Assembly (NCBI GenBank): GCA_015063545.1
Contig: SVTX01000017.1
Span: 1-37,168, forward strand
Direction of reading: 5' to 3'
Source of the DNA: Oscillospiraceae bacterium
GTDB taxonomy: Bacteria > Bacillota > Clostridia > Oscillospirales > CAG-272
DNA: 37,168 nt
Shown here: piece after piece, positions 1-34,468 of the stretch
How positions within the stretch are numbered: the first letter of the stretch is position 1
Layout of the letters: every line of letters starts with the position of its first letter
Notes under the pieces: generated by a model
The model's input: only the letters and a program-made list of their open reading frames with translations
Databases searched by the model: none
What the model was told of the DNA's origin: nothing
Program-made: the position numbers and the translations under genes

Positions 1-9
1 GTAAAAAGC

Positions 10-50
10 AAAGACCACACACAAGGTTTTATCCTTATATGTGGTCTTTT
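10..50. terminator. Intrinsic terminator hairpin at left edge
   Basis: A 10-bp perfect stem (AAAGACCACA at 10-19 with TGTGGTCTTT at 40-49) encloses a 20-nt loop and ends in a T-run on the plus strand and an A-run on the left. It probably ends a gene lying left of the window; it could work in both directions. Confidence 0.7.
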
Positions 51-123
51 CTTGTTTGCCCCGCTTGAAGGTGTCGCTCAAAAATTTACTGTTTTTCGTA
101 AATCCCTAAGTTGCACCATCTTT

Positions 124-447
124 GGCGTCTTTCTGTGTTTTTTGAGAAGGATAAATCAATAGCTCACCCCGATAGGGGATTCGCTCTTGATGGGATTCAG
201 AACTCTTACCACGCAAAGCGTGGTGCGAGATTCAGAACCCTCTGTGCCCCAGCCAAACACAAAAAAAGACGCCTATTGGCGTCTTTCTGTGTTTTTTGAG
301 AAGGATAAATCAATAGCTCACCCCGATGGGGGATTCGCTCTTGATGGGATTCAGAACTCTTACCACGCAAAGCGTGGTGCGAGATTCAGAACCCTCTGTG
401 CCCCAGCCAAACACAAAAAAAGACGCCTATTGGCGTCTTTCTGTGTT
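124..447. repeat. 154-bp tandem repeat downstream of tRNA-Gln
   Basis: Two full units (124-277 and 278-431) differ by one base (A174 versus G328), and the start of a third unit (432-447) runs into the tRNA-Gln 3' end. Read along tRNA-Gln transcription, each unit holds a terminator-like GACGCC/GGCGTC hairpin, an inverted copy of the tRNA 3' end (TGTGCCCCAGCCA on the plus strand at 243-255 and 397-409), a motif GGTTCTGAATC, a hairpin ACCACG/CGTGGT, and AGTTCTGAATCCC. Apparent reading frames through this block end in translated tRNA sequence and are not believed to be genes. This block explains the gene-free stretch at the left end. Confidence 0.85.
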
Positions 448-460
448 TGGCTGGGGCACA
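397..460. repeat. Long palindrome containing the tRNA-Gln 3' end
   Basis: TGTGCCCCAGCCAAACACA (397-415) is the exact reverse complement of 442-460, giving 19-bp arms around the inner GACGCC/GGCGTC hairpin. The right arm is the acceptor 3' strand, discriminator and CCA of tRNA-Gln plus 6 nt of trailer. In the tRNA transcript the downstream arm could therefore pair with the tRNA 3' end and compete with the acceptor stem. Confidence 0.85.
415..440 (-). terminator. Terminator of tRNA-Gln
   Basis: On the minus strand a stem AAAGACGCC (440-432 read in reverse) pairs with GGCGTCTTT around a 4-nt loop and runs into seven T residues (plus-strand A-run 415-421). It lies just past the CCA end of tRNA-Gln. 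The same hairpin recurs in the upstream repeat unit around 265-286. Confidence 0.8.
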
Positions 461-523
461 GGGATTCGAACCCCGGAAGTGACGGAGTCAGAGTCCGTTG
501 CCTTACCGCTTGGCGATGCCCCA
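448..523 (-). tRNA. tRNA-Gln (anticodon CTG)
   Basis: A 76-nt cloverleaf with encoded CCA (448-450). The acceptor stem is TGGGGCA/TGCCCCA with G73. The D-arm contains CAAGCGGTAAGGCA and the T-arm carries GGTTCGAATCC. The anticodon arm ACGGA-CTCTGAC-TCCGT gives anticodon CTG, reading CAG. It has its own promoter and terminator. The trailer is unusual in being a tandem repeat with an inverted tRNA end. Confidence 0.95.
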
Positions 524-540
524 ATGTTTACGACCACATA

Positions 541-569
541 ATTATAGCAGAAGATTCCACGTTTGTCAA
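541..569 (-). promoter_or_regulatory. Promoter of tRNA-Gln
   Basis: Minus-strand TTGACA (569-564) and TATAAT (546-541) are separated by exactly 17 bp, a full sigma-A consensus, about 18 bp ahead of the tRNA 5' end. Confidence 0.9.
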
Positions 570-616
570 TAACTTTTTTAAAAAAAATAAATTTTTTTCT
601 AAATCTGTAAAAATCA

Positions 617-645
617 TTGAATTCCTATAGCTTTTGTGCTATAAT
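617..645 (+). promoter_or_regulatory. Promoter of tRNA-Arg
   Basis: TTGAAT (617-622) and TATAAT (640-645) have a 17-bp spacer. The start site would fall near 652, about 40 nt ahead of the mature tRNA. This promoter is back-to-back with that of tRNA-Gln. Confidence 0.8.
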
Positions 646-692
646 CATACTGTTATTATTTCACCGATCGTGAACTTTATACGCCAAAAAAT

Positions 693-769
693 CTACCCGT
701 GGCACAGCTGGATAGCGCGTCAGACTCCGACTCTGAAGGTCAACGGTTCAAATCCGTTCGGGTAGGCCA
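693..769 (+). tRNA. tRNA-Arg (anticodon CCG)
   Basis: A 77-nt cloverleaf with encoded CCA. The acceptor stem is CTACCCG/CGGGTAG with G73; the anticodon arm is TCAGA-CTCCGAC-TCTGA (anticodon CCG, reading CGG); the T-arm contains GGTTCAAATCC. The D-stem reads GCAC/GCGC and so has an A-C mismatch at the position where most tRNA-Arg genes have T-A. Confidence 0.93.
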
Positions 770-810
770 AACGCAACACAGAGGGGCATAAGCCCCTCTG
801 TGTTGCGTTT
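769..810 (+). terminator. Terminator of tRNA-Arg
   Basis: A 19-bp perfect stem (769-787 with 792-810) with an ATAA loop, directly after the CCA end and closing on TTT. Very strong; probably bidirectional. Confidence 0.9.
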
Positions 811-840
811 CACCACCGGAACGGTAAGCAGAAACGTTAT

Positions 841-867
841 ACATAATTTTGCATCGCAAAATTATGT
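841..867. repeat. Perfect hairpin in tRNA-Arg / permease gap
   Basis: ACATAATTTTGC (841-852) and GCAAAATTATGT (856-867) form a 12-bp perfect stem with a 3-nt ATC loop and no T-run. It is followed by GAGAGTTCAGAAT, which resembles the AAGAGTTCTGAAT that follows the hairpin in the tRNA-Gln tail repeat. The rest of 811-908 holds nothing else I recognise. Confidence 0.7.
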
Positions 868-908
868 GAGAGTTCAGAATATCTACATCGCCAAATGTGG
901 AGATTGTA

Positions 909-937
909 TTTACTTTTTCCAATATTTGTGATACAAT
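909..937 (+). promoter_or_regulatory. Probable promoter of AEC permease gene
   Basis: TTTACT (909-914) and TACAAT (932-937) are 17 bp apart, about 90 bp ahead of the start codon. Both boxes are off consensus, so this is moderate support only. Confidence 0.55.
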
Positions 938-1028
938 AACTGAGAGAATGTTCTTGCATTCAGCCAATAAAGAAGTAAAAACTTCAAAAACGCGGAGAAA
1001 AATCTTTTTGATTTAACATTAAAATATT

Positions 1029-1964
1029 ATGAGCATCTTTTTTTCAACACTCAACCAGACGGCATTTCTGTTTGGATTTATAATTATAGGATACATATTG
1101 GCGAAATTGCGCATTTTGCCGGACAGCGCGGCCGCCGTTTTATCAAAACTTGAGAACAGCGTATTTATTCCCGCGCTTATTTTAGGTACGTTTATAAGAA
1201 ACTTTACCGTAGAGCGTATAAGATCTGCTTGGAAGCTGTTAGCCATAAGCTTTGGTATAGCATTTATCGCCATAGTGCTTGCTATACTTTTTTCAAAGCT
1301 GCTTACCAAGGATAAATATATCCGCAACATTTATACGTACGGCTTAGCATTCTCTAATTTTGGATTCATGGGGAATGCAATAATCAGCAGTCTGTTTCCG
1401 AGAGTCTTTTTTGAGTATCTGATCTTTACTCTGCCATTGTGGATACTTATATATATTTGGGGTGTTCCAAGATTGCTCATGGCAGATTCCGAAAAAAAGC
1501 AAACTTTTAAAGAATCCCTTAAAAACTTTGTAAATCCTATTTTTATCTCTATGCCGATAGGAATGATCATTGGATTGATCGGTCTGCCGTTGCCCGAATG
1601 GATCACCTCCCTGGTCGATGTAGCAGGCAGCTGCATGTCGCCTATCGCTATGATCCTGACGGGAATTGTGGTCTCCTCCATTTCTTTGAAAAAGACGTTT
1701 ACAAATGTCAGAATATATATAGTTTCCGTTATACGGCTCATCATTTTGCCCGGAATATTTATCGCAGTTACTCAGTTTATCAAAATGCCCCCTGCAATGT
1801 ATATATGCGCGCTTTGCTCGCTTGCGATGCCGCTTGGACTGAACACCATTGTAATTCCGAGTGCGTTGGGCAAAGATACGTCAGTGGCGGCAGGCATGGC
1901 GGTGATTTCACATTTGCTTGCATGCATCACAATACCGTTGATTTTTGCGTTATCTCAGGTTTGA
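1029..1964 (+). CDS. AEC family transporter (auxin efflux carrier-like permease)
   Basis: A 311-residue, very hydrophobic protein with about ten predicted membrane segments in two halves, joined by a short basic/acidic stretch near residues 150-165 (ADSEKKQTFKES). The overall pattern, including FSNFGFMGNAI near residue 109 and the late SLAMPLGLNTIVIP segment, fits the Mem_trans/AEC family of carboxylate or small-molecule exporters. The length is typical. The substrate cannot be told from the sequence. No good ribosome binding site lies immediately before this ATG; a GGAG sits about 35 nt upstream. That leaves the exact start uncertain, although the N-terminus aligns well with family expectations. 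It appears to be monocistronic, with no clear terminator before the next gene. Confidence 0.85.
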   Translation: MSIFFSTLNQTAFLFGFIIIGYILAKLRILPDSAAAVLSKLENSVFIPALILGTFIRNFTVERIRSAWKLLAISFGIAFIAIVLAILFSKLLTKDKYIRNIYTYGLAFSNFGFMGNAIISSLFPRVFFEYLIFTLPLWILIYIWGVPRLLMADSEKKQTFKESLKNFVNPIFISMPIGMIIGLIGLPLPEWITSLVDVAGSCMSPIAMILTGIVVSSISLKKTFTNVRIYIVSVIRLIILPGIFIAVTQFIKMPPAMYICALCSLAMPLGLNTIVIPSALGKDTSVAAGMAVISHLLACITIPLIFALSQV

Positions 1965-2087
1965 TTTCACCAACACACCGCGTTTCAAGCATAAAAAACA
2001 AAAAATATTTCAATACATATTCCTTGCCAAAAAGTAAATAACCCTAGGCATTTATAGAAAACAAACCTTGTCAAAAGGAGAAAAATC

Positions 2088-3815
2088 ATGGCTTTCACAA
2101 AGGACAATCCTTGGATAAAGGAACGCGAAGCAAACATTTGCACGTGGAAAATAGATTATAACCGCGGCTACATCAGCAACATGGCAACGTCACTTTTGGT
2201 TGACTTTTCATGCATGTCCAACCGTCAGCTTGCCGACTACGCAAAAATGCTCAAGACGTGCGGCTTTACGGGTGCGCAGGTCACCGATATGGTTACGGCT
2301 TGGCGTGCGTCGGGCTCGTGGGAATTCGTCCATGACCGCTACAAGGTGTTCGCAGACGAGCTCCACAAGCTCGGCATGAAGTTCTCTCTTTGGGTATGGG
2401 CGGCAACCTTCACAGGACACGGCTGGGTGGATGATGAGGTCGTATATATAAATGAAGACCCTTCAAAGCCCGCGTGGAAGGATAGTCGCGTGTGGGCAAC
2501 CTTCAATAAATATTATGACATCTACGCAGACATGGCTCCCTATACGGACCGCGTTATCGCTCACTTTTTCGATCCGGGTGAGTTGAAAGATACCGAAAGT
2601 ATTCTCAAATTCACACAGCTCCTCGCAGACAAGTTCCGCGGAATAAATCCCGACGTCAAAATAGGCATCGACACGTGGGGCGCGCCCGCGGAATATCCGT
2701 CCGAGCTTGTGCGCGCGGGAATGAAGGATATAATGCTCATGGAGCTTCCCTTTTTGCCGACGTGGAGAGCCGAGGGCAAACGCGCAGAGTTCCGTCAGGG
2801 TGTAAAAAATCTCGGCGTTGAGCTTGGCTCGTGGGGCTGGTACACATGCGACTACGAGATAGACCAGATGGCGACCATGACGGTCAACAACCGCGTTATC
2901 TCGCACGTATTCAACGAAACCCGCAAGCAAGCCGACCACGTTATGGTGCCGTCGTATTGGAGTGAGCTTGAGTCTTATCATCTGCTCAATTTCTTCTCCA
3001 TGTACGCCGCAGGACATCTTCTGACAGATCCCGATGCCAATCCCGATAAGCTTTTGCGCGAAAGCGCCGAGCTTATGGTCGGCAAGGGAAACTCTGATAA
3101 TGCAGACAAGCTCATGACGGTTCTTGAATTTATCCGCGACGGTAGAAGCGGAGACACGTGGGAGAGCTTTTGGCACGCGGAGGGTAATTTCACCCTGTAT
3201 TGCGCGGATTATTCATCCGTATTCGCCCGCGCAGACGAGGCTGTGGCTAACATGGAATACCTGATAGCTCAGCCCGAGCCCGAAAACGCTATGCCCTTTC
3301 CCATAACGAGAAAAGCGCTTTATAAGCTTATACTTCCCCACGTACACCAAATACGTCAGTTTGCGCGCTTCAGAGTAGATTACGAATCTCTCAAGGCGGC
3401 TCTTGCATCGGGCGCGGATAAAGAAACTCTGCAAAGCATGGTAGACGCTATGGATTTTGAAATTCCCGAATATAACTGTATAACAGGTCTTTGGGGACAG
3501 AACGAATGCCGCGCGGCTTATAACATACTCAACAGCTTCTGCAAGCAAAACGGCCTTGTCTCGCCTGCGAGAAACGGCGCCATGAAGATGATATACAAGC
3601 GTCGCATAATTGATTTTCTCTGTGTATGTCAGCGAGGACTTGACTATCCCGTGTGGGTAAATCACATGTTCTACGAAATGGGCATTCCCTTTGGCGACGA
3701 GTTTGGCGCGGAGCTTATGCGTGAGCTTATAGACGACGGCGTGCTTATCACGCGCGAGGACGGACTTATGGCGCTTTCCAACTGGTCGGATTATAGATTT
3801 GATTTTAACATTTAA
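2088..3815 (+). CDS. Uncharacterised TIM-barrel, glycoside-hydrolase-like protein
   Basis: A 575-residue soluble protein with no signal peptide or membrane segment. It starts at an ATG eight nt after AAAGGAG. The first ~300 residues alternate strands and helices in a way that suggests a TIM barrel: KFSLWVWAATF near residue 98, HFFDPGE near 160, KIGIDTWGAP near 194, and ELGSWGWYTCDYE near 245. Aromatic and acidic residues at strand ends are typical of sugar-binding barrels such as GH20-, GH67- or GH84-like families. The C-terminal ~250 residues look helical. I cannot assign a family or substrate. With no export signal it would act in the cytoplasm. A terminator follows directly. Glycosidase activity is inference. 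Confidence 0.75.
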   Translation: MAFTKDNPWIKEREANICTWKIDYNRGYISNMATSLLVDFSCMSNRQLADYAKMLKTCGFTGAQVTDMVTAWRASGSWEFVHDRYKVFADELHKLGMKFSLWVWAATFTGHGWVDDEVVYINEDPSKPAWKDSRVWATFNKYYDIYADMAPYTDRVIAHFFDPGELKDTESILKFTQLLADKFRGINPDVKIGIDTWGAPAEYPSELVRAGMKDIMLMELPFLPTWRAEGKRAEFRQGVKNLGVELGSWGWYTCDYEIDQMATMTVNNRVISHVFNETRKQADHVMVPSYWSELESYHLLNFFSMYAAGHLLTDPDANPDKLLRESAELMVGKGNSDNADKLMTVLEFIRDGRSGDTWESFWHAEGNFTLYCADYSSVFARADEAVANMEYLIAQPEPENAMPFPITRKALYKLILPHVHQIRQFARFRVDYESLKAALASGADKETLQSMVDAMDFEIPEYNCITGLWGQNECRAAYNILNSFCKQNGLVSPARNGAMKMIYKRRIIDFLCVCQRGLDYPVWVNHMFYEMGIPFGDEFGAELMRELIDDGVLITREDGLMALSNWSDYRFDFNI

Positions 3816-3820
3816 GATAA

Positions 3821-3844
3821 AAGGAGGCCCCCGCCTCCTTTTTT
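3821..3844 (+). terminator. Terminator after TIM-barrel gene
   Basis: AAGGAGGC (3821-3828) pairs with GCCTCCTT (3833-3840), followed by TTTT. It begins five bases after the stop codon. Confidence 0.85.
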
Positions 3845-3845
3845 A

Positions 3846-3874
3846 TTGACAACTCCCCTGCCCTATGCTATAAT
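3846..3874 (+). promoter_or_regulatory. Promoter of flavoprotein-asparaginase operon
   Basis: TTGACA (3846-3851), 17-bp spacer, TATAAT (3869-3874): a perfect sigma-A promoter placed immediately after the preceding terminator. A small GAGGT/ACCTC hairpin lies in the leader just ahead of the ribosome binding site. Confidence 0.9.
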
Positions 3875-3914
3875 GATTATTAGAACAAATTGAGGTAACA
3901 CCTCGGAGGTATAT

Positions 3915-4538
3915 ATGAAGGTACTTATGATAAACGGAAGTCCCAAGGCGGCGGGCAACACGGCGCGCGCACTTGCGGAAATGACAGGTATATTTGAGCA
4001 ATACGGAGTTGAAATTGAATATCTGCACGTCGGAAATAAGGAAATTCGCGGCTGTGTGGGATGTGGCACGTGCTACAAGGCAGGAAAATGTTTCATGGAC
4101 GACATTGTCAACGAGGCGGCGCAAAAGCTCGCGGAATGTGACGGCGTAGTAATCGGCAGCCCCGTATATTACGCGGCGGCAAACGGAACTCTTGTAGCGT
4201 TTCTTGACAGACTCTTCTATAGCACAACCAAGACAATAGACAGAAGAATGAAGGTCGGCGCATCGGTTGCGGTAGCCCGCAGAGGCGGTTGCTCGGCAAC
4301 ATTCGACCAGCTCAACAAGTATTTCACTATCGCGGGAATGCCCGTGGCGTCCTCGCAGTATTGGAACAGCGTTCACGGTGCAAAGCCGGGTGAGGTTGAG
4401 AGCGATGAGGAAGGACTTCAGACCATGCGCACGCTCGCGCATAATATGGTGTTCCTTATGCGCAGCATTGAACTGGGCAAAGAAAAATACGGTCTCCCCG
4501 AAAAAGAAGCTCCTGCAAGAACCAACTTTATCAGATAA
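3915..4538 (+). CDS. Flavodoxin-fold NAD(P)H reductase / iron-sulfur flavoprotein family
   Basis: A 207-residue protein of the NADPH-dependent FMN reductase family. GSPKAAGNT at residues 8-16 is the FMN phosphate-binding loop, and GSPVYY at 81-86 is the second flavin contact. Four cysteines at about 47, 50, 53 and 59 (CVGCGTC...C) match the compact cluster motif of iron-sulfur flavoproteins, although many family members with this motif have not been shown to carry a cluster. The ribosome binding site CGGAGG lies 6-7 nt before the ATG. It is probably co-transcribed with the asparaginase gene 20 bp downstream. The physiological electron acceptor is unknown. Confidence 0.88.
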   Translation: MKVLMINGSPKAAGNTARALAEMTGIFEQYGVEIEYLHVGNKEIRGCVGCGTCYKAGKCFMDDIVNEAAQKLAECDGVVIGSPVYYAAANGTLVAFLDRLFYSTTKTIDRRMKVGASVAVARRGGCSATFDQLNKYFTIAGMPVASSQYWNSVHGAKPGEVESDEEGLQTMRTLAHNMVFLMRSIELGKEKYGLPEKEAPARTNFIR

Positions 4539-4558
4539 AGAACGGAAACAAAAAGGAA

Positions 4559-5569
4559 ATGAAAAAGGTTTGTATAATTTACACCGGCGGCACCATCGGC
4601 ATGACAAAAACCCCGAAGGGATATGCTCCCTGCAAGGGATTTTTAAAGAAAAAACTTCTTGAAATGTCCGACTTTAAGAGTGACAGGCTTCCCGCATGGG
4701 ATCTTGTGGAGCTCTCTCCGCTGTTGGACTCATCCAATATGACGGTTCACGAGTGGAACATAATAGCAGAAGAAATAGAAAAAAGATATAACGACTACTG
4801 CGGATTCGTCATCCTCCACGGAACTGACACTATGGCATACACTGCATCGGCACTGTCTTTCATGCTTGAAAATCTTAATAAACCCGTAATTCTTACAGGC
4901 TCTCAGATCCCGTTTTGCGAAATAAGAAGCGACGCGCTCGACAACCTTATCGAATCGCTCATGATAGCCGCAGACGGAAAAGCCAACGAGGTGTGCCTGT
5001 ACTTCGGGGGTAGGCTTTTGCGCGGCAACAGAGCCACAAAATACTCGGCTGACGGTCTTGAAGCATTCAAATCCCCCAACTGCCTTTACCTTGCGCAAGC
5101 GGGCATAGACATAAAATACAGCGAAGCTTTGCTGCGCAAGCCGAACGCAGGAGAATTCCACGTTACAAAGCTCGCGCCGGTACCGATAGGCGTTATTAAA
5201 ATATTCCCCGGAATACAGTTTGATCTGTTTGCCCCCATCATGACGGAAAGCCTCAGAGGAATAGTCATTGAAACCTTTGGCGCAGGAAACGTCCCCGGCG
5301 GCGAAAACCAGCTTTTGCCGATAATTAAAAAGGCAATAGCGAACGGAACGGTCATAACGGTATGCACCCAATGCCCCAGCGGAAGAGTAACTCTCGGAGC
5401 ATATGAAACAAGTATCATGCTCAAGGATGCGGGCGCGGTATGCGGCTATGACCTGACTACAGAGGCAGCAGTCGCAAAGCTGTACTATCTGTTTAGCTGC
5501 GGATATGACAGCTCCGCCATCAAATCCCTTATGGAAAAAGATATTTGCGGCGAACTTACACAACTTTAA
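4559..5569 (+). CDS. ansA: L-asparaginase, type I (cytoplasmic)
   Basis: A 336-residue protein hydrolysing L-asparagine to aspartate and ammonia. The nucleophilic threonine lies in YTGGTIG (Thr12) and the second catalytic segment is HGTDTM (87-92). There is no signal peptide, matching the cytoplasmic type I enzymes, and the length is normal (about 330-350). GTIGMTKTPKGY is typical of the flexible active-site lid region. A ribosome binding site AAAGGA lies close to the ATG. It follows the flavoprotein gene by 20 bp in one operon and ends at a strong terminator. Some family members also act on glutamine, which cannot be judged here. Confidence 0.95.
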   Translation: MKKVCIIYTGGTIGMTKTPKGYAPCKGFLKKKLLEMSDFKSDRLPAWDLVELSPLLDSSNMTVHEWNIIAEEIEKRYNDYCGFVILHGTDTMAYTASALSFMLENLNKPVILTGSQIPFCEIRSDALDNLIESLMIAADGKANEVCLYFGGRLLRGNRATKYSADGLEAFKSPNCLYLAQAGIDIKYSEALLRKPNAGEFHVTKLAPVPIGVIKIFPGIQFDLFAPIMTESLRGIVIETFGAGNVPGGENQLLPIIKKAIANGTVITVCTQCPSGRVTLGAYETSIMLKDAGAVCGYDLTTEAAVAKLYYLFSCGYDSSAIKSLMEKDICGELTQL

Positions 5570-5577
5570 AATTATTA

Positions 5578-5610
5578 CCCCGTGTGCTATAAAGACACAC
5601 GGGGATATTT
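5578..5610 (+). terminator. Terminator after ansA
   Basis: CCCCGTGTG (5578-5586) pairs with CACACGGGG (5596-5604), followed by an AT-rich, T-rich tract. Confidence 0.85.
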
Positions 5611-5645
5611 ATTTAAAATTTTTTTGATTTTTTTGAAAAAAGTTA

Positions 5646-5674
5646 TTGACAAACGGGTAATCTTTTGATATAAT
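5646..5674 (+). promoter_or_regulatory. Promoter of tRNA-Glu
   Basis: TTGACA (5646-5651), 17-bp spacer, TATAAT (5669-5674), about 18 bp before the tRNA 5' end. The segment GTTATTGACAAACG is also present at the tRNA-Gln promoter. Confidence 0.92.
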
Positions 5675-5691
5675 ATACAAGTCGTAGACAC

Positions 5692-5766
5692 GGCCCATTG
5701 GTCAAGCGGTTAAGACGCTAGCCTCTCACGCTGGAAACTCGGGTTCGATTCCCGGATGGGTCACCA
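5692..5766 (+). tRNA. tRNA-Glu (anticodon CTC)
   Basis: A 75-nt cloverleaf with encoded CCA. The acceptor stem is GGCCCAT/ATGGGTC with A73. The D-arm contains TCAAGCGGTTAAGA; the anticodon arm is CTAGC-CTCTCAC-GCTGG (anticodon CTC, reading GAG); the T-arm is CGGGTTCGATTCCCG. It is transcribed alone, with its own promoter and terminator. Confidence 0.95.
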
Positions 5767-5767
5767 C

Positions 5768-5808
5768 AAAAAAGAACAGGAGTGCTTATGCACTCCTGTT
5801 CTTTTTTG
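5768..5808 (+). terminator. Terminator of tRNA-Glu
   Basis: An 18-bp perfect stem (5768-5785 with 5790-5807) with a TTAT loop, beginning with an A-run and ending with a T-run, so it could act in both directions. Confidence 0.9.
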
Positions 5809-5829
5809 TGCTTCTCTCATCCGTGGAAC

Positions 5830-6128
5830 CGAACTTGAAAACTCGGCTCTGCCGAGTTGAAGGTTCGATTCCCGACGTTAAATCTCCGATTACTTTACAT
5901 GCTTCGCGCGAGACTTTTCTAATTTTGTGCAATAGCTCCTCTGTTGTTTTTTTGCTCACTTATACGGACGCGAGAAACCGAACAACTCAAAAAGCGCTTG
6001 CGGTTTTTGAGTTAAAGGTTCGATTCCCGACGTTAAATCTCCGATTACTTTACATGCTTCGCGCGAGACTTTTCTAATTTTGCGCAATAGCTCCTCTGTT
6101 GTTTTTTTGCTCACCTATACAGACGCGA
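5830..6128. repeat. 155-bp-period tandem repeat downstream of tRNA-Glu
   Basis: Two 113-bp conserved blocks (5861-5973 and 6016-6128) differ at three positions. Each begins with AGGTTCGATTCCCG, which copies most of the tRNA-Glu T-arm. Each is preceded by CGAAC and a hairpin, but the hairpins differ: AACTCGGC/GCCGAGTT with a 3-nt loop (5840-5858) in the first copy and AACTCAAAAA/TTTTTGAGTT with a 10-nt loop (5984-6013) in the second. No believable gene lies in the 5809-6183 interval. Confidence 0.82.
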
Positions 6129-6152
6129 TAATTTGTGCAACGTCTTTCATTA

Positions 6153-6184
6153 AGAACAGCGAGGGAGATACCCCTCGCTGTTCT
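6153..6184 (-). terminator. Terminator hairpin after degV-family gene
   Basis: AGAACAGCGAGGG (6153-6165) pairs with CCCTCGCTGTTCT (6172-6184), touching the stop codon of the minus-strand gene. The T-tract on the minus side is short and interrupted, so it may be a weak terminator. Confidence 0.65.
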
Positions 6185-7023
6185 CAATTGCTCTCAAATC
6201 CAACCAGCAAGCCGCCAAGCTCTGCATAGAACGTACAAAGTCCTCGGCACTGATAAAGCTCTACCTTTACCTTCTCAAATTTCTTTTGTATAAGCTCCTT
6301 GAGCGCTTTGCCTGTTCCCTCGTTGCAACAGTGACCTATTTTGACTTTGCCATCGCGCAAACCAAACTCGTGAAGTCTCTCCAAAATAGTCTCAATGGCT
6401 TTTTTCTCTCCGCGACACTTGTCAAGCATCTCAAGGTCTCCCCTGTCGCTTGCCTTGCCAACCACACGAATACCCAAAAGCCCTGCCATCTTGGCAGTAA
6501 TCTGGCTTACTCTGCCGTTGTTTGCAAGATTTTTCATGGATTCAAGCATAAAAAGAAGCCCTGTTTTCTTGCTATATTCGGTTATCTGATTGCATATTGT
6601 CTCAAAATCATTACCTTCAAGCACAAGCTCGCGTAACTTTTCAAGAATAAGAGCAATCTCGGGTCCCGTGGATTTGGAATCCAACACAAAAACCTTGGCA
6701 TCCGGATGCTCCTCAAGATACATTTCTCTTGCCATGCATGCAGTATTATTACTGCCTGACAGCGCGCCAGTAATAGTAACACAATATATCTCTTTAGCGT
6801 CTCCAAATGTCTCCAGCCAGTCTTCAACATTTGGGCACGATGTAGAAGATCTGCCTTTATAAGAACTCATGTTCTCTGCCATTTGGACAACATCAAGCTT
6901 TGCGTCATCTACATATTCTTTGTCTGCTGTGATTATTTTCAACGGAGCAGATCTGAAATCTACTCCCTTTAGCTCCAAAACATCGGATGATGAATCCGTT
7001 ACTATTCTTATTTTTCTTTCCAT
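6184..7023 (-). CDS. DegV family fatty-acid-binding protein
   Basis: A 279-residue protein of the DegV/EDD fold. TDSSSD (residues 9-14), TSCPN (61-65) and the SGSNN segment (89-93) match the conserved ligand-binding signatures. Firmicute relatives (FakB) bind free fatty acids and present them to the kinase FakA, although many DegV paralogues have no defined partner and no kinase gene is visible here. AGGAGG lies six nt before the ATG. The gene is the last of a three-gene minus-strand operon, nine bp after the HAD phosphatase gene. Confidence 0.9.
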   Translation of the reverse strand: MERKIRIVTDSSSDVLELKGVDFRSAPLKIITADKEYVDDAKLDVVQMAENMSSYKGRSSTSCPNVEDWLETFGDAKEIYCVTITGALSGSNNTACMAREMYLEEHPDAKVFVLDSKSTGPEIALILEKLRELVLEGNDFETICNQITEYSKKTGLLFMLESMKNLANNGRVSQITAKMAGLLGIRVVGKASDRGDLEMLDKCRGEKKAIETILERLHEFGLRDGKVKIGHCCNEGTGKALKELIQKKFEKVKVELYQCRGLCTFYAELGGLLVGFESN

Positions 7024-27840: not shown

Positions 27841-30800
27841 TCAGTCTTCTTTTTTCTTGAATATCGCACCGCCCGCAAGAGCTATCGCGCCAAGCATTGC
27901 AAGTGCTGATACACCTACAACAGAACGGCATCCTTTGCGCTTTCCGTTCGATCCGTCATCGCTTGCCGATGTAGGAGCTTCGCTAGGAGTATCCGTAGAA
28001 TCTTCTGTTACAGGCTCATCTGTGGGTTCCGCTGTGGGCTCTGTCACAGGCTCGGTTGAGGGCTCGGTAGGACGCTCTTCTACTTCTCTCTTCTCTCCGC
28101 ATCTGTTGCAATCGGCGTCGTAATCGTCATCGTATTCGTGACCTATTGCAGCTACTGTTGTCTGTGCTACGAGAATTTCATTACATACGGAACAGTGCTT
28201 GCCTTCTGCAAGACCTGTCTCTGTACATGTAGGAGCTACTGCCGCATCAACTACTTCGGTATGTCCGAGTGCTTCAACTACTGTCTGAGCTACGAGAATT
28301 TCATTACATACGGAGCAGTGCTTACCTTCCGTAAGACCTGTCTCTGTACATGTAGGCGCTACTGCCGCATCAACTACTTCGGTATGTCCGAGTGCTTCAA
28401 CTACTGTCTGCGCTACAAGAATTTCTTCACATACGGAGCAGTGTTTACCTTCCGTAAGACCTGTCTCTGTACATGTAGGCGCTACTGCCGCATCAACCAC
28501 TTCGGTATGTCCGAGAGCATCAACTACTGTCTGAGCTACGAGAATTTCTCCACATACAGAGCAGTGCTTACCTTCGGTAAGTCCTGTTGCTGTGCATGTT
28601 GCCGCTACTGCCGTATCAACTACCTCGGTGTGTCCAAGAACATCAACTACTGTCTGTTCTACAAGAATTTCGTTACATACAGAACAGTGTTTACCTTCGG
28701 TAAGTCCTGTTGCTGTACATGTAGGCGCTACTGCCGTATCAACTACCTCGGTGTGTCCGAGAGCATCAACTACTGTCTGTTCTACAAGAATTTCGTTACA
28801 TACAGAACAGTGTTTACCTTCGGTAAGTCCTGTTTCTGTACATGTTGCCGCTACTGCCGCGTCAACTACCTCGGTGTGTCCGAGAGCTGCTGCAAGCTCC
28901 GTGCCACATACTGTACATATCTGAGCCTCTGTACATGTTGCTTCTGCGCCGGGAGTATGTCTGCCTGTTGCGGGAGCTATAAGCGCATCACATACCGTAC
29001 ATGTCTGAGCTATTGTACAAGTTGCCGCATCACCGGGGGTGTGACCAAGCGCAACTACTATTGTTTCACCGCATACTGTACATGTCTGAGCTGTTGTACA
29101 CGTTGCTTCTGCTCCGGGGGTGTGAGAAAGCTTTTCTACTGCCTCTGTAGCAACTACCGCGCCGCAGTCATTACATGTCTGTTCACGTCTTCCCACCGCA
29201 GAACACGTAGGCTCAACTGTCTGTGTCCACGTTGTGTCTTCGTGATCGCAACCGAATCCGCATACGCATACGTTAGTATCTCCGAAGCTATGAGCTACCT
29301 TTTCGGTTGTAGCGTCACAGTCGCTACACTTATTCCAGTGATATTCATCATCGCAAGTATATGCAACACTCCAGTCGTGAGCGAGCATTTCTGTTACTTC
29401 CTGCTCTACAAGTATTACATCACATCTGCTACACTTAGAGCCGTTTGTAAGACCCGTAGAAGTACATGTTGCGGGTGTTCCGAGAATTGTTACTTCTTCA
29501 TGTCCGAGCGCGGGAATTTCTTCCTGTGCTGTTATAACTGCATCACACTTGCTACATACAGAACCTTCTTTAAGACCTGTTTCTGTACATGTAGGTGCCT
29601 TTCCTGCTACTACCTTGGGTGTGTGAGGAGCCTGTTCTGTTTCTGTCTGCTCTACAAGAACAGTGTTACAAACATCGCACTTAGAGCCGTCTGTCATACC
29701 GGGTGTCGTACATGTTGCCGCATAGCCGGGAACTGTTACAGGAGTATGACCTGTAGCGGGAATTTCTTCCTGCTCTATAAGAATTGTATCACAAACCGAA
29801 CAGTGTTTGCCCTCTGTAAGACCTGTGTTTACACAATCGGGCGCTACTGCCGCGTCAACTATTTCGGTATGTCCAAGCGCGTCTCCGTCGGTTGTGTTGC
29901 AAACAGAACATGTCTTGGGATCTGTGCATGTTGCGGGTGACCATATATGACCAAGAGCTGCTCCGCTTGTTTCTCCGCAAACAGTACATGTCTTGGGATC
30001 TGTGCATGTTGCGGGTGACCAGCTATGACCAAGAGCTGCTCCGCTTGTTTCTCCGCAAACAGAACATGTCTTGGGATCTGTACACGTTGCGGGCGTCCAG
30101 CTATGACCAAGAGCAGGAATCGTTTGCTGCGCAGAAATAATCTCACCGCAAACACTGCACTTCTGTTCATCAGTAAGTCCGGGTGTTACACAGTCGGGGC
30201 TTACTCCGGGAGTTGTTTGAATAACGTGGCTTGACGGTGTGCGTGTCGCGCCGCACTTATTACAGGTGGCATCGCACGCATTGTCATATTCATGAACACA
30301 ATCTCCAAGCGCATCGCTTATCTTCTGCACAAGAGTATCGTAGCTCATCATTCCGATCGTCTTAGAAATTATCACTCCGTTTTCATCAAGAATCACAGTC
30401 ATAGGATAATATCCGCTTGCAGCAATAACATCGTAATATACTCCATTGGCAAGATCGTCAACGAATATAATATCAGAATTGGGATAGTTCTGCTGTACGT
30501 AAGGTCTTCCGTCCGCGGAACCTGCATCTGAATGAATGGCAACTATTGTTACTCTATCCGCATATTCCGTCGCAACTCTGTCAAAATGAGGAAGCTCACT
30601 TTTACAAGGGCCGCACCACGTAGCCCAGAAGTTGAGAACAGTCACCTTTCCTCTGTTCTGAAGTATATTAAATGTGCCGCCCGAATATTTTGTAAGATCT
30701 GCGGAGTAACAGATATCTCCAACGTCTACAACTTCTACACCCCTTAGCTCTCCGCATCTGTTACAGTCAAGATCGATATCTCCGTCATATGTATGTCCGA

Positions 30801-33800
30801 GAGCTTCGCCATTGGTTATTTTACACATGAAGCATTTGCTGGGCTGCGTGCAGGTTGCAAGTGTCCAACTGTGACCGTTTGCCTTTCCCTCCGTTTCACC
30901 GCATACAGAGCAAGTCTTGGGAGTTGTACAAGTTGCATCTGACCAGGTGTGCCCGAGGGCTACGCCATCTGTTGTGCCGCATACAGAGCAAGTCTTGGGA
31001 GTTGTGCAATCAGAAGCTGTCCAATTATGGCCGAGCGCGGGGATTTCCTCCTGCTCTACCGTTATGGTACCACATACCGTACACACTCTTCCTTCTTTAA
31101 GTCCCGCATCTGTACAAGTAGCTTCTACTGCGGGAATAGTCTCTTCGGTGTGTCCGAGCGCGGGTATCTCCTCCTGAGCTACCGTTACAGTATCACACAC
31201 CGTACATACCTTTCCTTCTGTAATTCCCGTCTCCGTGCAAGTTGCATCTGCCGCGGGAAGTATCTGCTCGGTATGACCGAGCGCTGGAGTTTGAATCTGA
31301 GCCTTAGTTATCTCATTACATACGGAGCAACGCTTACCCTCGGTAAGTCCGTTGTCAGTACAAGTTGCATCTGTTGCGGGAATTGTCTGTTCGGTATGTC
31401 CGAGCGCAGGAATTTCTTCCTGCTCCAAAATAAGTTCTCCGCACTCTTCGCACAAAATTCCATCTGTAAGACCGGTCTCCGTGCATGTAGGTTCTATTCC
31501 GGGAAGTATTATTTCCATGTGGTCTGCCGCCTCACCTTCCGTCGCGCCGCAAACCGTACAGGTTTTTGCCTCGGTACAAGTGGCATCCTTCCAGCTGTGT
31601 CCGGCAGCTTCACCTTCCGTTGCGCCGCAGTCCGGACAAGTCTTGGGAGAAATACACGTTGCCTCTGTCCAATTATGGGTAGCGGCAACAGATCCTATTG
31701 AAAGTCCACATCTGCTACACATCTTAGGCGCGGAACAGGTAGCATCTACCCAATCGTGTCCGAGAGAAGGCAAAGATTCCTGCGCTTGTACAATTTCTCC
31801 GCAGATCCGACAAGTTATCTCATCACTAAGTCCCTTTGCCGAACAAGTGGGTGCGACACCCGCCTTGGTTACCTGGGTGTCTCCATGAGTACAGTTCTCT
31901 ATTACGTATCCGCACACCGTACACGTACCGTTTGAATATTCATGCGCCTCCGTTTCGGATATCTCTCCGCAATCGTTGCAGGTATTCCAGTGGCCTGCCT
32001 CGTTCTTTTCGTATTCCGATACGTTCGTATGAGCACATTCTTCCATCACGTATCCGCACACCGTACATGTATTGTTTTCAAATGTATGTGCAACTTGCTC
32101 GGTCGCTTCACCGCAATCATAACACGTTTGCCAGTGAACGCTGTCGTTGCTGCTGTATGACGACGAAAAATCGTGCCCGTTGGCATATTCAGCTATAAGT
32201 CCGCACCTGGTACACGTCCAGTCCTCCGTACACGTCTTCTCCGGCCAACTGTGTCCGAGCGCCGCCTGATATACCTTTCCGCACGTGGGACAAGACTGAG
32301 GCGTCGTACATGTTGCAGCGGGTCCCACAGTGCATTCGTGAACGGGAACAGCTACGTTATTAGCCTGAAGCAGAGTCAATATCTTTCCGCTTGTGGTGGA
32401 GACGGCAAAATAAACCGTCGGTATAGTCTGCCCCGCCCAAGGTGACAGATCTGCTGCTATATTTTTAAACTTCGAGTTCGCCTCACAATTATCCGTAGAT
32501 GTAAGCTCGGCAAGTATTGTTGCCGTTTCGAGAATAGTCGCGTAGTTTGACATATCTACGGTTTGACTTGCGCTACATTCAAACCAGTTGTAATTATCAA
32601 CCGACCAGTAATATCCGCCCTGTCCCCCGTTTACAATCGCCCAACCGGTAATACTCAATTTATTATTGCCCGTAGCGGATATTCCGCTGATCTGTGGTAT
32701 GTACGGTGTCTTATACGTAGAATTATTTCTGTACGCGGACAATCCCTGATATGACGACGCACTGCCGTCAGGGCCCGTGCCATTTATAAAGTCTATGTTT
32801 CCTGCGTATCTGTACGCTGTTGATGGACTTGCGGTTATATCCGGAGTTTCCGTAACCACCTCGTTGGGAGTATCTGTGGGAGCCTCCGAGGGTTGATCCG
32901 TAGGTGTTTCTGTAGTATCATCTACGTTTGAGTTTGTAGATGACGTATTATTGTTCTTTACTCCGTCAATAAACTTAATTCCGGACGAACGAGTATATGA
33001 CGCATTTACGTATGCTCCGTCGTAAACTATCGCCAAGCTGTTTCCAACAACTCTGGGCTGACCGTCGGAGCATCCGTTTCTTCGAACGTATACGTTGTCT
33101 TCCAGAGTTACGCACGTAGCAGATCCGCCGCCGTCAAACATGAACGCATTGACACATCCAAGCTCAACGCAAAGGTCGGGAAGATTTTTGCCGCGAGCTC
33201 CCTGATATGCGCTGTCGCTCTGCGTAGTTACGTTTATGAGCATAGCGGTTCCGTCGGCTTTGATTCCTACGATAGAGGTAGGATACTGATTGTTGTTATT
33301 CGGCTCACCCGTCTTTACTCCGTTTTCAACAAGCGTAAAGAATCCGCCAATGATCTGTGTTGCGTTTCTCGCCGTGCTGGCTCTTGCCGAGCAGCTGACA
33401 GTGACAGTGTCTCCAACGCTTGCCGCGAGATTTTCAAGCTCAACGATAGACGAGCCTCTTGCCGAGAGAACTACTGTGTTTTCACCTATAGCGGGACGCG
33501 TTTCCTTCCAGTCATTATTTGTGTATGTAACATTCTTGTTCTCGTAAACCGCCGTTACTCGACCTGTAATAGTCTGACCGACTCTGAATTCAGACGTGTC
33601 ACATTCAAGATATATCTCGTACGCATCGGCGAACGCAAGCGATTCGTCGTACACACGTTTATTGTAGATCAGCAAGGAATCGGGTGCCGGGGTTCGATTG
33701 ATAGCATCCGCATTTGCTGTTTTCGTTGTATTCGTATCAGTTATTTTAAGAACTATGGAAGGCACGTTCGTTATAGCGTAAGTGCCATCCTTCAGAACGT

Positions 33801-34395
33801 AAAATGCCTTCTGTCCCGATACTTCCCAGTCCGTGTAGTTTGTGTTATCCATCTGGTTTTCGTCGCTGAACCAACCGGTGTTCCAAATTTCACCGTCTAT
33901 CATAACGAAGCCCATGGGGATACCCCTACCGCCTATCTTTACCGCAGGGCCCGTTGACGAAACGTGGTCCCCGTCATAGTCGGACGTTGTCATAAGCCAA
34001 GGCGCTGCGTTTGTTGCCGCAATAACCGTGGAGGATGAGTGGGAATTATTGTACGCAATGGCAGCAGCGCCAACGGTTGACGAGCTCCAGTTATACGTAC
34101 CGTTATTGATTACCTGAAATCTTGCGTTAGTGGGATCGGCGATCTCTATAACGTTAACCACTCCCGCAGACGAGGGAGCATATAAGCTTCCCTTTGTAAG
34201 CTTCATCTGCGTATAGCGAACACCCGTATCCCTGCCGTCAACGTAGACGGTCTCCGTAACAACGGAGGATGCTCCCGTTACCGCTGCAGGCGCAGTGTAA
34301 GCGGCAGATGTCTGCACCGATGCAACTGCCACAAAAAGAGCCAGCAGCATAGACGCGCAAATTATAAATGAGACTATCTTCAAATATTTTTTCAT
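27841..34395 (-). CDS. Giant secreted phosphodiester-glycosidase / thioredoxin-like / CxxC-repeat surface protein
   Basis: A 2184-residue protein. A signal peptide (1-32, KKYLKIVSF...TSAA) leads into a phosphodiester glycosidase (NAGPA) domain at about 45-455, with [10 protein letters not shown] near 418. A Thr/Pro/Glu-rich linker (~482-522) and an unassigned domain (~527-683) follow. Cysteine repeats fill ~685-1220 and ~1365-2103. Between them is a TlpA/ResA-type thioredoxin domain (~1227-1365) with [15 protein letters not shown] near 1257. Repeats follow the plan LGH...C...CxVC, about forty CxxC pairs in all, perhaps zinc-binding. A second acidic Thr/Pro linker, a final membrane helix (~2157-2178) and KKKED anchor it. 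No LPxTG is present. NAGPA relatives remove sugars from phosphodiester links. The ATG at 34395 has GGAAGG upstream; an earlier frame start lacks support. Confidence 0.9.
28138..28885 (-). repeat. Six 123-bp tandem coding repeats
   Basis: The segment encoding the [16 protein letters not shown] repeat recurs with exact 123-bp (41-residue) spacing; the codons for HTE fall at about 28258, 28381, 28504, 28627, 28750 and 28873. The copies are nearly identical at DNA level, indicating recent duplication or gene conversion. A more diverged set with the same period covers roughly 31030-31510 (landmarks at 31136, 31259 and 31382). Confidence 0.9.
29880..30113 (-). repeat. Three 78-bp tandem coding repeats
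   Basis: The 26-residue unit [17 protein letters not shown]... recurs three times with exact 78-bp spacing (landmarks at 29946, 30024 and 30102), nearly identical in DNA. It is a shorter version of the cysteine repeat, within the same giant gene. Confidence 0.88.
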
Positions 34396-34468
34396 AACAA
34401 CCTTCCTTTCTGATATTCGTTGGCTGTACCGCACTATTGGCGACAGAAACTCATTTTATTCTAGTTTC

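Follow-up and report, generated by a model that had tools for sequence, protein, structure and literature searches.

The window analysed here is a stretch of 37,168 nucleotides from an Oscillospiraceae bacterium (GenBank assembly GCA_015063545.1, contig SVTX01000017.1), which is contig C31 of a genome designated G000 that comprises 1.83 Mb in 69 contigs and is 92% complete. Three tRNA genes are located in the window, namely, tRNA-Gln(CTG) on the minus strand and tRNA-Arg(CCG) and tRNA-Glu(CTC) on the plus strand, and ARAGORN and Rfam were concordant on them. Each gene is followed by a tail of hairpin units that carry partial copies of the tRNA itself, and the structure, distribution and possible origin of these tails are described below. 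Reading downstream from the 3' half of the tRNA (S1), a unit consists of a terminator-like hairpin, an antisense copy of the acceptor and the 3' T-stem strand of the same tRNA with an altered T-loop (arm A), a second hairpin (hp2), a linker of about 4 nt and a sense copy that starts at the T-loop GTTC (S2). S2 begins with GTTC, after which one extra A or T is sometimes inserted, and continues with the T-loop and 3' T-stem sequence of that tRNA.

On the minus strand, tRNA-Gln(CTG) (448..523), the source of both arms of its tail, is followed by a terminator-like hairpin at 413..446, which was found by repeat search, folding and a terminator scan and forms the centre of a longer palindrome. The palindrome arms (396-419 and 438-461) are 96% complementary, reach at least 14 nt into the tRNA and include its 3' end, and this region folds far better than shuffled sequences (z −12.7). 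Arm A (383..409; own-tRNA antisense score 15.5) keeps the acceptor and T-stem with an altered T-loop, and is followed by hp2 (362..378; ACCACGC/GCGTGGT) and S2 (346..357), which reads GTTC, an extra T and GAATCCC. The repeat search placed a second, 99% identical unit at 122..275 with a period of 154 bp, and its hp2 and S2 lie at 208-224 and 192-203.

On the plus strand, tRNA-Arg(CCG) (693..769) carries a single and more degenerate unit. A long hairpin (769..810) is followed by arm A (811..836; antisense score 7.5), a 12-bp hp2 (841..867; fold z −5.1) and S2 (872..884; GTTCAGAATATCT; score 6.0), a degenerate sense copy whose GTTC begins at 872. The tail of tRNA-Glu(CTC) (5692..5766) contains two tandem units with a period of 155 bp and 96% identity over 123 nt. 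In the first unit, a long hairpin with 21-bp perfect arms (5765..5810) precedes arm A (5811..5834; antisense score 11.0), hp2 (5840..5858; fold z −4.2) and S2 (5863..5875; GTTCGATTCCCG), the last being the same as in the tRNA. In the second unit, arm A (5961..5983) has the altered T-loop CGCGAGAAAC, hp2 (5984..6013; fold z −3.7) differs in sequence from that of the first unit, and S2 lies at 6018..6030.

The hairpins and GTTC motifs were thus found where the initial annotation of this DNA had placed them. What it called a pseudo-T-arm is not a T-arm; the motif duplicates the T-loop and the 3' strand of the T-stem of the tRNA that it follows (in degenerate form for Arg). Its shared plan of terminator, hairpin and motif missed both the antisense copy between the first hairpin and hp2 and the tandem repetition at Gln and Glu. 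As for the terminators, a simple scan called a site after tRNA-Gln only, in both units; the first hairpins behind tRNA-Arg and tRNA-Glu have T-runs inside the stem and were not called. We infer that the first hairpins of all three tails act as terminators. A mechanically defined open reading frame (ORF) of 147 aa overlaps the Gln tail, and one of 89 aa the Glu tail. Perfect TTGACA-17-TATAAT promoter-like sites lie upstream of tRNA-Gln (541-569, minus) and tRNA-Glu (5646-5674, plus).

Twelve genomes of the same genus were compared, comprising G000 and eleven relatives (G001 to G011). Units are often tandem, with a length of about 100-155 bp (some longer), and up to three hairpin units occur at other G000 genes. 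An automatic survey of hairpin-type units yielded 71 units (64 distinct) behind 41 genes in 10 of these genomes; a small number of these are spurious, for instance one for Gln that lies inside the first palindrome. The linker between hp2 and S2 was 4 nt in 45 of the 71 units, and GTTC was followed by no extra base in 36, by A in 18 and by T in 17. Arm A kept the exact antisense of its own T-loop in 2 of the 64 distinct units, in a count that looked at 30 nt; in some units (e.g. His) arm A lies further upstream.

The arms match the local tRNA. Each tRNA 3' end was aligned, in antisense and sense, to the downstream sequence of its own gene and to those of other tRNA genes, and the two scores were summed. 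A summed score of at least 22 was reached by 43 of 140 own pairings vs 1 of 1120 swapped pairings, and a score of at least 20 by 56 of 140 vs 5 of 1120. With a tail called at an own-tRNA score of at least 20 or by a hairpin plus GTTC, tails were present in 66 of the 140 testable genes and in 10 of the 12 genomes: 17/25 genes in G000, 6/13 in G001, 4/6 in G002, 0/9 in G003, 4/8 in G004, 6/12 in G005, 0/12 in G006, 6/12 in G007, 6/10 in G008, 5/10 in G009, 2/9 in G010 and 10/14 in G011, the counts for the eleven relatives covering sampled tRNA genes. The match also follows the species: the 3' T-stem of tRNA-Arg(CCG) reads CCGAT in G005 but CCGTT in both G001 and G011, with S2 matching its own species in each case; the arms of tRNA-Val(GAC) likewise track G009 vs G008 and G010.

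Rfam identified 32 tRNA genes in G000; of these and the transfer-messenger RNA (tmRNA) gene, 25 had at least 130 nt of tRNA-free downstream sequence and were testable. The 17 tailed genes support the proposal that the window tails belong to a tRNA-tail repeat family whose plan is shared by other tRNAs of the genome. The eight untailed genes are His, Tyr, Val(GAC), Arg(CCT), Ser(GGA), Leu(TAG), Ser(GCT) and one Met gene (L022), the last having a longer insert and a sense copy with a score of 19. A hairpin followed by 2-5 nt and GTTC was found 60-130 nt downstream of 13 of the 25 genes. The same pattern was absent from window positions 6201-37168 (61,936 nt, both strands) and occurred in 2 of 77 upstream regions and at 1 of 46 genes of other genera, so that its occurrence behind tRNA genes is beyond chance. 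Behind the tmRNA gene of G000, three sense copies stand in a row (by eye; two were counted in the automatic survey). Their presence behind tmRNA, which has a T-arm, suggests that the T-arm is the target.

Orthologous tRNA genes are empty in some species and filled in others. At tRNA-Pro(TGG), G005 is longer than G011 by 87 nt, after which a 68-nt flank is 91% identical. The tRNA-Gln(TTG) site is empty in G003, G006 and G010, and units stand ahead of the same flank in G001 and G011. At tRNA-Ser(GGA), no unit is present in G000 (137 nt of downstream sequence seen) and two are present in G002, beyond which lies a terminator like the one directly behind the tRNA in G000 (by eye). At tRNA-His, the tRNA-proximal unit of G004 and G008 is unlike the proximal unit of G009, which comes next in the array (by eye). 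A second unit is present at tRNA-Val(GAC) in G009; the contig of G004 ends inside the first. The displaced 3' end extends all the way to CCA at Arg(CCG) in both G001 and G005, at Gln(TTG) in G007, at Thr(CGT) in both G000 and G005 and at Lys in G008; one base is inserted or changed after GTTC in the Arg, Gln and Lys copies and in the Thr copy of G005. These empty and filled sites imply that the units behave as T-loop-anchored inserts, and the comparison suggests that they come and go at the tRNA T-loop.

The hairpin core follows the lineage. The pattern ACATN{9,22}ATGTRARNGTTC matches G000 20 times, at 11 loci, and its reversed form once; of the 20, 18 lie beside tRNA or tmRNA genes and 1 beside a tRNA 3' half, and the remaining orphan lies 296 nt from the start of a contig. 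G002 has 3 matches at 3 loci; the ten remaining genomes of the genus lack the pattern, and among 47 more distant genomes, 4 contain it once each. Without the GTTC requirement, the ACAT-type hairpin matches 9 times at 8 places in G000 and twice in G002, always within a tail, and is absent from the ten other genomes of the genus. The G000 tails of Glu, Trp and Gln(CTG) bear other hairpins. Because the ACAT core occurs in only G000 and G002 of the 12 same-genus genomes, the core follows the lineage and the arms follow the local tRNA. The pairing of hp2 is also maintained through two-sided changes: in ten 27-nt hairpins, hand-picked for equal length and including that of the Arg tail, 8 of 12 pairs changed on both sides and 99.2% of cells were paired, compared with a mean of 78.9% in shuffled controls and 26-47% in slid structures. 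Wholesale hairpin replacement or palindrome correction would give the same picture.

This division of parts bears on a rival account of the tails, pure replication slippage, in which the polymerase would fold back and forth over the tRNA 3' end at the hairpin, producing arm A and S2, and unequal recombination would multiply the result without any mobile part. Slippage would explain the local arms without an enzyme, fits the form without hp2 at tRNA-Ala of genome G025 (a genome outside the genus) and the close likeness of the Gln and Glu units over their repeated parts, and has a parallel in the fold-back templated inverted duplications that PMC11724301 reports in yeast. It leaves unexplained why one core occurs at 11 G000 and 3 G002 loci and in none of the ten other genomes, and why a 4-nt linker is preferred. 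We consider pure slippage unlikely.

The reading that we prefer, to which we give an even chance, treats the tails as tRNA-linked repeats, meaning small insertions of non-coding DNA that are anchored in the T-loop of a tRNA or tmRNA gene, with arms that are local copies and a hairpin core that belongs to the lineage, inserted by a fold-back mechanism. The hairpin core, as folded single-stranded DNA, would be joined to the conserved T-loop tetranucleotide GTTC, probably by an enzyme acting in trans. The broken tRNA would then be restored by synthesis running across its 3' end and the adjoining hairpin; this hairpin would fold back, so that the 3' end is copied in antisense and then joined to the core. 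This would leave the tRNA intact and produce a long palindrome, arm A and the core, with the original 3' end displaced beyond them as S2. Arrays would grow at the tRNA side, and tandems may arise from repeated insertion or from unequal recombination.

Folding as DNA and comparison with known insertion systems bring in a further alternative. Six segments spanning arm A, hp2 and S2 were folded, and arm A paired with S2 in four of them, enclosing hp2 in both Glu units and Pro and pairing directly in Ala, which has no hp2. The tails could be micro-islands: cassettes formed beforehand and carrying matching tRNA 3' ends, which a tyrosine recombinase acting on folded single-stranded sites would insert at the T-loop in the manner of integrons, and which would stack at the tRNA side. 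Displaced 3' fragments behind an intact tRNA, as seen in the clostridial tails, are the recognised footprint of integration into tRNA genes (tDNA) according to PMC4383910, and the tails resemble the tyrosine-integrase type of tDNA genomic islands (Islander) in the target at the T-loop or 3' end, the intact tRNA and the tandems. They differ from such islands in their length and in the lack of an integrase; Islander, as PMC4383910 states, drops candidates shorter than 2 kb or without an integrase. No integrase lies within a unit, as the units are too short to encode one (the two ORFs overlapping the Gln and Glu tails were not examined). The suggestion that the motifs are att-like remnants is partly supported: T-loop insertion would leave displaced tRNA 3' ends and empty and filled sites, but no integrase was linked to the units.

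The four segments in which arm A pairs with S2 further resemble the integron attC site, as described in PMC2727003, in having a poorly conserved sequence and a conserved fold with arms, an unpaired spacer and a variable tip. Cassette genes were not seen in the clostridial units, in which mechanical ORFs were not examined. The R boxes of attC have the consensus GTTRRRY/RYYYAAC, which the tails do not follow: S2 reads GTTC(W)GA, and only the GTT/AAC core is common to both. The array differences next to tRNA-His are also in line with stacked cassettes. The integron integrase model TIGR02249 was over its cut-off in none of the 12 same-genus genomes, and the 14 controls likewise gave none. Moreover, the core is common across tRNAs within a lineage and the arms are not, which would need an extra exchange between cassettes. 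On balance, the cassette account has a small chance, although not a negligible one. REP/BIME hairpins with RAYT (Y1) transposases were also considered, as they too place short hairpins at many loci of one genome; no Y1 transposase match was obtained in G000, and a general REP element was not supported, because the ACAT-type core was found within tails only.

Other searches for an enzyme or a carrier gave the following results. The Y1 transposase PF01797 had no match in G000 (92% complete) and was over the cut-off in 3 of the 12 same-genus genomes. GTTC is the target of IS91/ISCR elements; the Y2 transposase PF04986 had no match in the 12 genomes, and the control genomes gave no match either. 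Tyrosine-recombinase domains were present in all 12 genomes, and one protein of 346-357 aa, which we take to be Xer-like, was common to 11 of them. Fifteen viral matches of a looser tail pattern lacked the unit architecture by eye, and several look like tRNA genes.

Several observations weigh against the insertion reading. No enzyme is linked to the units: the 346-357-aa recombinase occurs in the tail-less G003 and G006 as well, its G010 copy contains a stop, and no copy was found in G000. No carrier was found either, as the pattern ACACATAAA detected no tail in viral contigs, the phages (searched with the Glu tail only) gave no match and the plasmids (searched with the Gln tail only) gave none. 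The window Arg segment and a Ser segment, two of the six folded, pair arm A with S2 weakly or not at all; neither arm of the window Arg tail is significant alone, and many G000 S2 copies, including those of the window, are only 10-14 nt long. The purine-rich altered T-loop of arm A is apparent in G000 and only weakly enriched overall: GAGAA was found at 15 of 66 tailed vs 5 of 74 untailed genes, a looser set at 15/66 vs 9/74, and GARAAM at 14/66 vs 18/74. A conserved purine-rich motif in arm A is weakly supported. At the filled tRNA-Gln(TTG) sites the old terminator is partly lost, and the insertion is not clean; because its 5' arm is missing in the filled genomes, the insertion came with some deletion. 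Part of the new His unit in G004 and G008 resembles a distal unit of G011 and G009, and this likeness makes the His array a possible rearrangement rather than a new insertion. Finally, where all arms match, foreign preformed arms are indistinguishable from local copies.

The closest precedent is the tRNA-linked repeat (TLR) of Escherichia coli. PMC8144298 gives 22 TLRs at ten loci, with one to five per locus, each holding a stretch of 18-19 bp that is identical to the upstream tRNA or rRNA at its 3' end; it adds that TLRs were first described in 1978 and had no known function before the three rRNA-operon cases of that 2021 study, which are reported to be transcribed and bound by Hfq and CsrA. 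The clostridial tails share the location downstream of the gene and, with one unit at Arg, two each at Gln and Glu and up to three elsewhere in G000, fall within the range of tandem copies per locus. Beside the 18-19 bp of TLRs, the clostridial sense copy is complete to CCA at the genes listed above and 10-14 nt long in most G000 units. The initial statement that no standard feature matches the tails was too strong, because TLRs fit the description in outline; the clostridial form tried was not matched by Rfam. The covariance model RF00391 (RtT) matched the E. coli tyr (4) and lys (5) repeats, with no match in five clostridial loci (E <= 0.5) or in window positions 1-6200 (E <= 1).

The tyrTV locus and ten further loci were compared in E. 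coli MG1655 (K-12); 20 tRNA genes at these loci are followed by 100 nt or more of free sequence. A sense copy with a score of 18-19 was present at 11 of the 20 (Tyr 2, Arg 3 and Lys 6; swapped maximum 11) and at none of the other 9. An antisense arm above the swapped maximum was present at 4 of 20, namely, both Tyr genes (14.5 vs 12.5) and lysV and lysQ (13 vs 11). In two lys repeats the fold pairs a short antisense arm with the sense copy, and in an arg repeat it does not. The tyr antisense arm GGGGAAGGATGAGAAGCTTCGA differs from the plain antisense GGGGAAGGATTCGAACCTTCGA in an altered T-loop, like the clostridial units. The Tyr, Arg and Lys repeats have a common hairpin stretch near CAACGRCCCGWAGGGCGA, with variants, and local sense copies (by eye). 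At argQ, 4946 of 5375 matching genomes cover at least 80% of the tRNA plus repeat. Against the phage set, the lys repeat had 3 partial matches (39-49% covered, 80-88% identical), all in Salmonella records and one under an annotated RtT RNA; against the plasmid set it matched 18 records, several of them chromosome-sized.

As in the TLR/RtT of the tyrT operon (RF00391), the clostridial units stand behind tRNA genes, are tandem and each end in a 3'-end copy that starts in the T-loop; the tyr repeats have an antisense T-arm copy with an altered loop, then hairpins, then the sense copy. By reading, lysV and lysQ show the order tRNA, terminator-like hairpin, antisense T-arm, hairpins, sense 3' end and terminator-like hairpin. 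Local sense copies joined to a largely shared hairpin core represent the same division of parts. The clostridial units differ in having another hairpin core, often one perfect hairpin adjoining GTTC, and in the identical stretch, which begins at GTTC and not after GTTCG or GTTCGA as in E. coli. Unlike TLRs, the G000 units that were read lie past a terminator-like hairpin and follow a majority of the testable genes (17/25), and antisense arms are clear at only 4 of the 20 E. coli genes. The clostridial tails look like an expanded form of the E. coli repeats. The TLR class itself is known; unusual here are the extent, the insertional and T-loop-anchored look, and the composition, half local copy and half lineage core. 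An open-access literature search, with subscription papers mostly outside its reach, found no description of the clostridial form.

The TLR findings also raise the question of an RNA function, in which read-through transcripts would fold as arm A with S1 or arm A with S2 and would regulate tRNA processing or act as small RNAs. The E. coli RtT region is annotated as non-coding RNA, the three rRNA-operon TLRs are reported in PMC8144298 to be transcribed and to bind Hfq and CsrA, and the two-sided changes in hp2 would fit a conserved RNA hairpin. Against this, the G000 units lie beyond a terminator-like hairpin (only that of Gln was called by the scan), and presence varies by species, with none of the tested genes tailed in G003 (0/9) and G006 (0/12). 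A functional RNA trailer seems quite improbable. As for the preferred T-loop insertion, E. coli and clostridial tRNA-linked repeats may even form one class of units folded as single strands, with the universally conserved T-loop GTTC as target, the tRNA rebuilt by fold-back copying and a recombinase acting in trans; this extension is speculative, and we put it forward with considerable doubt. If true, most tRNA genes of a genome could become marked with a hairpin specific to its lineage. A lineage with many tailed tRNA genes, together with empty and filled relatives, makes an origin of TLRs by T-loop insertion directly testable. The finding may also bear on annotation, because island finders requiring 2 kb and an integrase can overlook such units, and assemblies may break at repeats next to tRNA genes.

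Outside the genus, the own-tRNA score alone says little: at a score of at least 22, own vs swapped pairings were 2/46 vs 4/368 in the family, 2/34 vs 0/272 in the order and 0/35 vs 0/280 in the phylum. An extra set of 20 genes, drawn partly from genomes already suspected of tails, gave 3/20 vs 0/160, one of the three being the tRNA-Lys gene of G041 again. Two scores in G059 are due to neighbouring tRNA genes in opposed orientation. By reading, clear tails were found at tRNA-Ala of G025 (tandem), tRNA-Cys of G061 and tRNA-Lys of G041, and the Tyr and Thr genes of G037 have the antisense arm only.

Some further arrangements were observed behind tRNA genes. The tRNA-Gln(CTG) genes of G004 and G011 (L122 and L123) have near-identical tails with entirely different hairpins between CCA and TGG, a difference that appears to be rapid turnover of the palindrome centre. 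A multi-hairpin cluster of another type (GTGAAAT-, GTGAAGT- and GTGATAT-type repeats), without a displaced tRNA copy, lies directly 3' of the hairpin behind some tRNAs; such clusters were seen at Tyr, Thr(TGT) and Val(GAC) of G000 (L009, L010 and L030) and at L121, L125 and L138 in relatives. The tRNA-Thr(GGT) tails of five same-genus genomes (L001 and L069-L072) contain a nearly whole second tRNA-Thr copy with a hairpin-rich insert in its variable region; an anticodon-loop variant considered at this gene was dropped, as the structure looks like a tRNA pseudocopy with a hairpin in the variable region. At the end of contig C55 of G000 (L055), a tRNA 3' part like that of tRNA-Pro(CGG) of G010 is joined to unrelated DNA and followed by a tail, and may represent the distal end of a genomic island inserted in an already tailed tRNA. 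In the remainder of the window, a 575-aa ORF (2088-3815) with no Pfam match at 1e-5 lies between the tRNA-Arg and tRNA-Glu tails, and a 2197-aa ORF occupies 27841-34434 on the minus strand.

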